Source of the DNA: Variovorax terrae
GTDB taxonomy: Bacteria; Pseudomonadota; Gammaproteobacteria; Burkholderiales; Burkholderiaceae_C
DNA: 64,000 nt
Reading direction: 5' to 3'
Assembly (NCBI RefSeq): GCF_022809125.1
Contig: NZ_JALGBI010000001.1
Span: 2,790,001-2,854,000, forward strand
The notes under the pieces are model-generated. The model was not told where the DNA came from. It ran no database searches and worked only from the letters and a program-made list of their open reading frames with translations. Below, in pieces: positions 49,147 to 51,900 of this stretch; the stretch's first letter is position 1; every line of letters begins with the position of its first letter. Position numbers and translations under genes: made by a program.

Positions 49147-49169
49147 AAACCGCCTTCGGGCGGTTTTTT
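49147..49169 (+). terminator. Intrinsic terminator of rpsT
   Basis: AAACCGCC-TTCG-GGCGGTTT is a classic stable tetraloop hairpin followed by further T residues. Confidence 0.9.
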
Positions 49170-49208
49170 CGTTTCTGCGCGGCTGCTGCGCGCCGGCATT
49201 GAATTGCG

Positions 49209-49214
49209 TACAAT
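49209..49214 (+). promoter_or_regulatory. Putative -10 box of the EF-G paralogue leader
   Basis: TACAAT lies 10 bases before the first short ORF, so the transcript could start almost at its ATG. A good -35 is not seen. Confidence 0.4.
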
Positions 49215-49224
49215 CCAACCCCAC

Positions 49225-49305
49225 ATGAACCGACAGATCCGCCAGACCGACATGCGCGCCCGCAGCCCCAGGGGCAGGCACGCGCTGCTGGCGTTCCGCC
49301 GCTGA
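49225..49305 (+). CDS. Arg-rich short leader ORF, 26 aa
   Basis: ATG 49225 to TGA 49305 encodes 26 residues, 8 of them Arg (MNRQIRQTDMRARSPRGRHA, then LLAFRR). There is no Shine-Dalgarno, but the putative -10 box is so close that the mRNA would be nearly leaderless. It is followed by the terminator at 49351-49400, the layout of a transcription attenuator with a leader peptide. Whether it is translated cannot be told from sequence. Confidence 0.4.
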   Translation: MNRQIRQTDMRARSPRGRHALLAFRR

Positions 49306-49350
49306 CCTTCCGGACTCACCCTCCGGGAGGCCACTGCCTTCCGGGGACCG

Positions 49351-49400
49351 CAATCAAACCCCGCTGGGCAGGCCCCCACCGGGGTTTTGTTTTTTGATTG
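49351..49400 (+). terminator. First attenuator-like terminator in the EF-G paralogue leader
   Basis: CAATCAAACCCCG pairs with CGGGGTTTT...GATTG; the T-run TTTTGTTTTTT follows the GC stem. It lies 45 bases after the first short ORF and more than 200 bases before the EF-G gene. Confidence 0.65.
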
Positions 49401-49418
49401 CCCGTGCAGGAGCCTGCC

Positions 49419-49559
49419 ATGCGTACCTACGACAAGCTGATCGCCACGATTCACTCCGGCCAGGGGAACGGGGGCTTGCGCCCGTCCTTTGGCGGAGTTG
49501 CGGTGTCCGGCCCGCGTGCGCTGCATGCGTCCCGCACCGCCTCGCAAGATTCGGCATAG
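49419..49559 (+). CDS. Second short leader ORF, 46 aa
   Basis: ATG 49419 has AGGAG seven bases upstream, so translation is likely. The 46-residue product begins MRTYDKLIATIHSGQGNGG and has no known motif. It ends 28 bases before the second terminator. A role as a leader peptide that senses ribosome stalling is inferred from position. Confidence 0.5.
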   Translation: MRTYDKLIATIHSGQGNGGLRPSFGGVAVSGPRALHASRTASQDSA

Positions 49560-49587
49560 CCTTTTCGAAGGGTTCACGTCACGACGA

Positions 49588-49624
49588 CCCTGGCCGGCTT
49601 GCCCGCGCCAGGGTTTTGTCTTTT
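49588..49624 (+). terminator. Second attenuator-like terminator before the EF-G paralogue
   Basis: CCCTGGC (49588-49594) pairs with GCCAGGG (49607-49613), followed by TTTTGTCTTTT. It ends 13 bases before the EF-G paralogue start, so it must be read through for expression. Confidence 0.65.
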
Positions 49625-49637
49625 GGGGCAGCACATC

Positions 49638-51662
49638 ATGGAAACAAGAAAACTCAGAAACATCGGCATCATTGCGCACGTGGATGCAGGCAAGACCACG
49701 ACCAGCGAACGCATCCTCTTCTATACCGGCGAGAACTACCGGCTCGGCGAGGTGCACGAGGGCACCGCGACGATGGATTTCGACCCGCAGGAGCAGGCGC
49801 GCGGCATCACCATCAACAGCGCGGCCACCACGGTGTTCTGGCGCGGCACGCAGATCAACCTGATCGACACGCCCGGCCACATCGACTTCAACATCGAGGT
49901 CAACCGCTCGCTGCGCGTGCTCGACGGCGCGGTGGTGGTGTTCGACGGCGTGGCCGGCGTGGAGCCGCAGACCGAAACCAACTGGCGCATGGCCGACAAG
50001 TACGGCGTGCCGCGCCTGTGCTTCGTCAACAAGATGGACCGCGTGGGCGCGGACTTCCTGCGCGTGGTGGAGATGATCCGCCAGCGCTTGGGCATCGCGC
50101 CGCTGGTGCTGCAGCTGCCCATCGGGGCCGAAGGCGGGTTCACGGGCCTCGTGGACCTGCTGGAGATGCACGCCCTGGTCTGGCACAACGGCGAGACCAG
50201 CCCCCCCGCGGTGCTGCCGATCCCGGCCGAGCTGCAGGCCCAGGCCGAAGCCTGGCGCCAGCGGCTGGCCGAGGCCGCGGCCGAGCAGGACGACACCCTG
50301 CTCGGCAAATACCTCGAAGGCCAGCCGCTGTCGGCCGCCGAACTGCGCCCGGCGATCCGCCGCGGCACCCTGGCCGGCGCCTTCGTGCCCGTGCTGCTGG
50401 GCTCCGCGTTCAAGAACAAGGGCGTGGAGCCCCTGCTGGATGCGGTCGTGGCCTACCTGCCGGCGCCCGAGGAGGTGCCCCGCCAGGACGTCGAGGCCGA
50501 CCCCGCCGGCCCGTTCGCGGCGCTGGCCTTCAAGGTGGTGCATGACGACCACGGGATGCTGACCTTCCTGCGCGTCTACCGCGGGCGCCTGGAAACCGGC
50601 GACACCGTGCTCAACACCATCACCGGCAAGCGCGAGCGGGTCTCGCGGCTGTACGAGATGCACGCCAACCGCAAGCAGGAGCGCGAGGTGGCCGTGGCCG
50701 GCGACATCGTCGCGGTGGCGGGCCTCAAGGCCACGGTGACGGGCCAGACCCTGGCCGACCCGGCGCATCCGCTGGTGCTGGAGCAGATCGTGGCGCCCGA
50801 GCCGGTAATCGACGTCGCGGTCGAGCCGCTCACGCAGGCCGATCAGCAGAACCTGCTCAAGGGCCTGCACGCGCTGCTCGAGGAAGACCCGAGCCTGCAT
50901 CTGCGCCAGGACGCCGAAGCCGGCCAGACCATCCTGTCCGGCATGGGCGAACTGCAGCTGGAAGTCACGCTGGAGAAGCTGCGCACGCGCTACAAGGTCG
51001 AGGTCCATGTGGGCAAGCCGCAGGTCGCCTACCGCGAGACGCTGACGCGGCCCGCCCGCGTGCGCTACCTGCACAAGAAGCAGAGCGGCGGCCCCGGCCA
51101 ATTCGCCGAGGTGGTTCTGCTGCTGGAGCCGCTGGAGCGCGGCGCGGGCTTCGTGTTCGAGAGCCGCATCACGGGCGGCGCCGTGCCGCGCGAGTACATC
51201 CCCTCGGTCGAGACCGGCATCCGCCGGGCCGCCCAGGCCGGCGTGCTGGCGGGCTTCCCCTGCGTGGACTTCAAGGCCACGCTGGAGGACGGCAGCTTCC
51301 ACGAGCGCGACTCGTCCACCATGGCGTTCGAGTACGCCGCGGCCGCCGCCTTCCGCGAGGCCGCGGGCGAGGCCGCGCCGGCGCTGATCGAGCCGGTGAT
51401 GGCGGTCGAGGTGATCACGCCCACCGAGCATGTGGGCGACTGCATCGGCGACATCAACCGCCGGCGCGGCCATGTGCGGCACCAGGAGCTGCGCGGCAGC
51501 GGCTCCGTGATCGAGGCCCATGTGCCGCTGCAGGAGATGTTCGGCTACATCGGCCAGCTGCGCGCCATGACCTCGGGCCGCGCCAGCTTCACGATGCAGT
51601 TCGACCACTATGCGGTCGTGCCTGCGCGCATGGCCGAGGCGATGGGGGGACGTGTGGCCTGA
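49638..51662 (+). CDS. Elongation factor G paralogue (FusA2/TetM-like GTPase)
   Basis: A 674-residue translational GTPase. G1 is [15 protein letters not shown]3 DTPGHIDF and G4 [10 protein letters not shown]; domain IV has [12 protein letters not shown] and domain [15 protein letters not shown], ending in [15 protein letters not shown]. It is shorter than EF-G and lies outside the str operon. It may be a second EF-G, a ribosome-recycling form, or a ribosome-protection type factor. ATG 49638 ([10 protein letters not shown]) is chosen because it opens the G domain. The long leader with two short ORFs and two terminators suggests control by attenuation. Confidence 0.9.
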
Positions 51663-51701: not shown

Positions 51702-51776
51702 TGGTTTCTAGCTTGGATCGGGCAGATGTCCTTGTCCTGCGGTCGTTTCTTGCTATCGATTCAGGAGTTTCCTGCT
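51702..51776 (-). repeat. Dispersed repeat copy, inverted arm
   Basis: On the minus strand it reads GAATCGATAGCAAGAAACGA, CCGCAGGACAAGGACATC and TGCCCGATCC. It is the only copy in the minus orientation and is complementary over about 70 bases to the copy at 51827-51900. Confidence 0.75.
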
Positions 51777-51793
51777 GCTTGAATGGCCGGGTC

Positions 51794-51817
51794 GGATGGC
51801 CTGCAAGCCAGCCATCC
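51794..51817. terminator. Hairpin in the centre of the inverted repeat pair
   Basis: GGATGGC and GCCATCC pair around a 10-base loop. It lies at the apex of the large inverted repeat, 130 bases after the EF-G paralogue. There is no T-run, so a terminator role is uncertain. Confidence 0.3.
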
Positions 51818-51826
51818 AGGCCAAAG

Positions 51827-51900
51827 AGCAGGAACTCCTAAGTTGATAGCAGGGAAAGACCACCCGACAAGGACATCCGCCCGATTTCTCTTGGAAATCA
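51827..51900 (+). repeat. Dispersed repeat copy, direct arm
   Basis: TTGATAGC, AAAGACCACCCGACAAGGAC and CATCCGCCCGATTTCTCTTG follow the consensus. Together with 51702-51776 it forms a ~200-base stem-loop between the EF-G paralogue and the DUF3579 gene, and it reaches the 3' end of the latter. Confidence 0.75.

Follow-up and report, generated by a model that had tools for sequence, protein, structure and literature searches.

A tandem leader upstream of a second elongation factor G gene in Variovorax terrae and its relatives, read as a putative two-step ribosome-operated attenuator

There is precedent for a translation factor under ribosome-mediated attenuation. The Bacillus subtilis vmlR leader, as described in PMC9226507, combines an upstream open reading frame (uORF), an anti-antiterminator, an antiterminator and a terminator with a layer of translation attenuation, and it answers ribosome stress. 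The leader analyzed here is built alike and also precedes a translation factor. The vmlR leader differs in having one uORF and encoding an ABC-F protein, whereas our locus has two ORF-plus-switch units in tandem, an elongation factor G (EF-G) as the target, and a hairpin within the second ORF. A further parallel is the TrpRS of Streptomyces coelicolor, reported to be an auxiliary drug-resistant translation enzyme under ribosome-mediated attenuation (Vecchione and Sello 2010). Pseudomonas aeruginosa likewise has a second EFG I-type EF-G, and its copies, EF-G1A and EF-G1B, differ in fusidic acid sensitivity; these copies are 84% identical to each other, however, and neither "leader" nor "upstream" occurs in the text of PMC3832671. 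A literature search on fusA2, EF-G2 and EF-G paralogues with a leader peptide or attenuation, in which subscription journals were thinly covered, gave no such leader among the matches listed. What seems to be new is that two units stand in tandem, that the target is an EF-G and that a hairpin lies within an ORF.

The window is a stretch of 64,000 nucleotides from the Variovorax terrae genome, and the parts of the leader and its gene lie on the plus strand. A stem-loop with a T-run at about 49147-49169 is the terminator of the upstream rpsT and insulates the unit; a scan reports its palindrome on the minus strand (49166-49147). Downstream follow, in order, a −10-like hexamer TACAAT (49209..49214) 10 nt 5′ of the ORF1 AUG, the 26-amino-acid leader ORF1 (49225..49305) with an unconserved peptide, terminator 1, the 46-amino-acid leader ORF2 (49419..49559) with a Shine-Dalgarno sequence AGGAG (49408..49412) and a conserved N terminus MRTYDKLIATI, terminator 2 (a stem at 49587-49614 and a T-rich stretch reaching 49624), and the 674-amino-acid EF-G paralogue (49638..51662). 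This order had been described in an initial annotation of the window, and all of its parts were located in place, among them the second terminator 13 bases before the gene. That spacing, merely 13 nt from the end of terminator 2 to the EF-G ATG at 49638, argues against a separate promoter for the gene after 49624. The rpsT terminator, the RNA strands A, B and C after ORF1, and the hairpin within ORF2 (49459..49493) are additions of the present analysis. Compared with shuffled sequences, attenuator 1 folded with a z score of −2.5, attenuator 2 with −3.0, and the in-ORF2 hairpin with −2.9. At gathering scores, no known Rfam leader family matched the window (0 matches). We conclude that the leader elements of the window exceed chance, as confirmed both by their better folds and by their recurrence before the same gene in other genera. 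Just 3′ of the paralogue lies a 53-nt inverted repeat (51717-51885; 81% complementary, arms 63 nt apart), possibly a small mobile element or a pair of terminators, together with a weaker outer repeat pair at 51677-51703/51918-51944.

Carriers of the EF-G paralogue numbered 18 of 200 genomes in a sample of the family and 11 of 300 in a sample of the order, with the window's genome in both, giving 28. Identity ranged from 64 to 100% in the family sample; the 11 places of the order sample lay at 68 to 100%, and the next matches came only at 55%, the level of canonical fusA. The initial annotation had proposed looking for the leader upstream of orthologues, and ORF2 was found just upstream of the paralogue in 27 of the 28 genomes, the conserved position of a leader ORF, with translation predicted. 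The exception, G196 (L176), has an in-frame TAG in the paralogue gene and lacks a leader in the 500 nt that were read. One in-frame stop (TGA) also interrupts the paralogue of G016 (L172), where ORF2 is kept and attenuator 1 was not found. ORF2 was read before nine relatives of at least 68% identity, from Andreprevotia, Chitinimonas (2), Chitinolyticbacter, Cupriavidus (2), Chitiniphilus, Amantichitinum and Acidovorax, and it lies likewise upstream of the paralogue in G528 and G568. An ORF2 profile search gave matches in 14 of 399 order genomes, 13 of which (the window's included) precede an EF-G paralogue; the match in G442 (L135) was false, having neither an ATG-start ORF2 nor an EF-G. When a single ORF2 sequence was used as the query, 158 of 200 genomes matched at E up to 1, nearly all of it noise past the first dozen and not a count. 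The protein database held eight ORF2 relatives at E up to 1, the named ones being "hypothetical" or "uncharacterized." A tree built from the 28 paralogues with 16 canonical EF-Gs placed all paralogues together on one side of a branch with full support. Among them, the copy from the window clustered with copies from other families (G443 and G212), outside the main group of its own family; this suggests that the gene moves together with its leader. No member of the paralogue clade was seen among 87 PLSDB plasmid records with an EF-G match (E 1e-100), all of which were below 60% identity.

The TIGR00484 equivalog model identifies the encoded protein as a true EF-G (907.5 bits against a cutoff of 659.4). 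It is 52% identical to the other EF-G of the genome, on contig C3, and it falls below the cutoff of the tetracycline ribosomal protection protein model NF012153 (369.3 versus 775 bits). The EF-G2 of Bacteroides is an alternative EF-G under special control that reportedly lacks the GTPase motifs. The window protein differs from it, scoring under the NF058620 cutoff (450.8 versus 1000 bits) and keeping the P-loop, DTPGH and NKMD motifs intact. Residues at the fusidic acid pocket were compared at position 457, in what we take to be Staphylococcus aureus numbering mapped via the GMGELH motif. Glutamine occupied this position in every paralogue with the motif (119/119 from the database and 34/34 locus copies, two overlapping sets in which the motif is absent from 1/120 and 1/35, respectively), and histidine occupied it in 91/91 canonical EF-Gs. 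Residue 464 was arginine in no paralogue with the motif and either arginine (42/91) or isoleucine (49/91) in canonical EF-Gs, and position 89 was asparagine in 34/35 locus copies versus threonine in 89/91 canonical proteins. In PMC13295663 and PMC3993491, H457Q, L461K/S and changes at R464 are listed for fusidic acid resistance in staphylococci, H457Q with a moderate MIC. The paralogue is perhaps insensitive to fusidic acid, judging from these residues. The pocket changes may also be without meaning for drugs, because canonical EF-Gs too vary at 461 and 464. A comparison at position 417, presumably the argyrin site, was discarded: the position had been located only by counting residues, and canonical EF-Gs vary there.

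Downstream of ORF1, five RNA strands can pair in two ways. Strand A (49306..49314) abuts the ORF1 stop codon and pairs with strand B (49322..49331), B pairs with either A or C (49334..49346), and C pairs with either B or D. Strands D and E (49356..49388) constitute terminator 1, with a T-run to about 49396. The antiterminator, A:B plus C:D, excludes the terminator, B:C plus D:E; thus, the leader has the mutually exclusive RNA structures, one of them an intrinsic terminator, that characterize a ribosome-mediated attenuator. Covariation in the stems had been proposed as a check on the initial annotation, and both alternative pairings were found to covary. The alignment comprised 23 loci (25 were cut out), some of them close relatives. 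The antiterminator pairs were paired in 80.1% of cells (shuffled, 74.7; slid, 34 to 57) and the terminator pairs in 91.2% (shuffled, 87.1; slid, 34 to 67), with the pair columns defined from the single row L103, which favors the unslid structure. Cells changed on both sides numbered 23 for the antiterminator, against 10.8 in shuffles (reached by 0 of 500), and 11 for the terminator, against 2.5. Two-sided change occurred in eight antiterminator pairs, a number also attained by 66 of 500 shuffles, and in seven terminator pairs, attained by 1 of 500. A covariance model, R1, trained on attenuator 1 only, found that attenuator in 31 of 35 loci, eight of them outside the training set, and missed it in four (L010, L096, L176 and L177). 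In L128, an insertion with a repeat-like stretch lies between attenuator 1 (1187-1284) and ORF2 (1501).

The direction of this first switch was read from geometry and folding. When the RNA was folded up to D with A free, A:B (at least four pairs) formed in 18 of 23 loci, C:D (at least three) in 19, and B:C in none. When the stop codon and the following 12 nt were masked, B:C formed in 16 of 23 and C:D in 4. Because masking shifts the fold from C:D to B:C, a ribosome on the ORF1 stop should favor termination, and its absence should favor read-through. In the window, the free RNA folds in the ON form; therefore, the OFF state would rely on an active ribosome.

In the window, 8 of the 26 residues of ORF1 are arginine, as the initial annotation had noted, yet the other ORF1s read have fewer arginines or none. 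Arginine-specific attenuation of the amino acid biosynthetic kind was therefore rejected, there being neither a conserved regulatory codon run nor a kept arginine content. The Trp-codon leader of the S. coelicolor TrpRS reportedly senses tRNA charging; in contrast, no regulatory codon is conserved among the ORF1s. A sigma70 promoter scan around TACAAT returned no passing pair, the −35 being poor. With ORF1 start codons chosen by hand, 13 of the 16 loci that belong to the window's family type had a −10-like hexamer at a distance of 5 to 12 nt upstream of the ORF1 AUG; the corresponding figures were 27 of 1,004 for ATGs in these loci and 0 of 14 for the remaining loci. Because of this spacing, the ORF1 mRNA is probably leaderless, or nearly so, in the window's family type.

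ORF2 is conserved in two different manners. Over its first 11 codons the peptide is conserved and synonymous changes are allowed, except at codon 11: all 28 loci share the same residues at positions 5, 6, 8 and 11, with synonymous changes at 5, 6 and 8, and codon 11 (49449-49451) is ATT in all 28, whereas the Ile codon 8 alternates between ATC and ATT. The N terminus is two codons longer in G030, G155 and G018. Codons 14 to 25 form a hairpin in which 84.5% of cells are paired, against 37 to 50 when slid, and in which two-sided change affected 37 cells, compared with 13.8 in shuffles (0 of 500); the count covers 30 ungapped rows, 29 of them distinct, and leaves out L175, L177, L178 and L180. 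The loop region UUGCGC is nearly invariant, with codon 21 CGC in 27 of 28 loci and codon 20 TTG, GTG or CTG in 28 of 28. Only 15 of 30 hairpins beat synonymous-codon controls at 5%. RNA seems to be selected here, because the peptide changes where the stem changes. Optical tweezers have linked hairpin unwinding to EF-G binding (PMC12775393), so the ORF2 hairpin would be a plausible test of EF-G action.

Model R1 also recognized a second copy of the switch after ORF2 in 14 of 35 loci (E < 0.01), the window included. Thirteen of these copies started with the ORF2 stop codon itself, and the one in L004 started six bases later. In the window the copy is shortened and runs from the ORF2 stop onward (49557..49624; 29.5 bits, fold z score −2.97); it is the second-best R1 place in its own genome. 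The best other place, C1:467846-467931, lies at the 3′ end of a 497-amino-acid ORF and was set aside as probably an ordinary terminator. The 34 loci with ORF2 divide into 14 of the terminator type, 14 of a start-hairpin type, chosen by eye for absence of a terminator, and 6 in neither class (L006, L009, L106, L126, L127 and L128). The attenuation proposed in the initial annotation is thus supported by a conserved, covarying leader, but the second block of 14 relatives looks by eye like a start-covering hairpin and not a terminator.

In the start-hairpin loci, an arm able to pair with the EF-G start region begins 5 to 12 nt past the ORF2 stop. Mean duplex energy was −16.5 kcal/mol, versus −12.4 for arms swapped between species; only 4 of 14 arms beat every swap, because many arms are alike, and shuffled arms did as well in 0 to 19 of 500 trials. 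Folded alone, the RNA hides the EF-G start; with a ribosome placed on the ORF2 stop, this start becomes accessible in 13 of the 14 loci (L100 is unchanged), so that step 2 in these loci looks like coupling, opposite in sign to switch 1. Among the 14 loci of the terminator type, only L008 and L133 shifted, by eye, to a B:C-type pair once the ORF2 stop was masked, the cut point having been missed for L003 and L010; kinetics would have to produce that shift in such loci. An antiterminator between the 5′ arm of the ORF2 hairpin and terminator 2 (8 bp in the window, by eye) was absent in most relatives inspected and was rejected.

We propose, as a moderately probable reading, that the leader is a two-step ribosome-operated attenuator that induces an auxiliary EF-G when translation is slow. 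The proposal builds on what comparison of sequences provides: the leader is conserved, its strands have alternative pairings, its layout is repeated, ORF2 contains a hairpin, and the protein has altered pocket residues with its GTPase motifs intact. From these we infer that the switches depend on the ribosome, which sign each of them has, what signal induces them and that the protein is insensitive to the drug. At step 1, a ribosome moving at normal speed would park on the ORF1 stop and cover A, so that B:C and D:E form and transcription terminates; a late ribosome, stalled in ORF1 or never loaded, would leave A free to form A:B, C would capture D, and read-through would follow. Step 2 would repeat this layout at ORF2, where the hairpin must unwind just after the conserved eleven-residue N terminus, and in some relatives it seems to act at the EF-G start region. 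Slow translocation, caused for example by a drug that acts on the main EF-G or by too little of that EF-G, would thereby call up a second EF-G with a differing fusidic acid pocket, and the leader would sense ribosome or EF-G activity. A narrower version, possible but doubtful, makes the ORF2 hairpin a load cell for EF-G: weak EF-G action would stall the ribosome there and induce a drug-insensitive replacement. If the helicase site of the ribosome is situated some 11 nt in front of the P site, the hairpin base would be met with the invariant codon 11 in the P site. If true, a translational GTPase would be subject to inducible target replacement, with the target's own reaction acting as the sensor.

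The same features can be read otherwise. MRTYDKLIATI could be a drug- or metabolite-dependent arrest peptide that stalls the ribosome with a specific ligand, as in the erm and msr leaders, with the hairpin only fixing the stall site. Such a role would fit residues 5, 6, 8 and 11, invariant despite synonymous changes at the first three, and the fixed ATT at codon 11, but a conserved stretch that is N-terminal and about 11 residues long is short for arrest in the tunnel, and we recognize no known arrest motif in it; we regard this alternative as rather unlikely. Nothing need be sensed at all if ORF2 simply opens the EF-G start by coupling or reinitiation and the terminators give low constitutive expression. 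The arms 5 to 12 nt after the ORF2 stop and the starts exposed by a ribosome in 13 of the 14 eye-chosen loci are what such coupling would produce, yet it leaves unexplained both the covarying alternative strands A to E at ORF1 and the hairpin in ORF2, and we think it improbable. That hairpin, with its covarying stem and a loop conserved at codons 20 and 21, could instead be bound by EF-G or a ribosomal protein in autoregulation. Its place within a translated ORF speaks against this, to our knowledge it contains no known protein-binding site, and such autoregulation appears very unlikely.

If the two-step attenuator operates as proposed, a core translational GTPase would be controlled by ribosome movement, through two serial checks with an mRNA hairpin as the test piece. 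The leader would then offer a natural in-cell reporter of EF-G activity. Moreover, the proposal predicts that Burkholderiales-type genomes in which the second copy bears no annotation beyond "elongation factor G" conceal an inducible tolerance of EF-G inhibitors.
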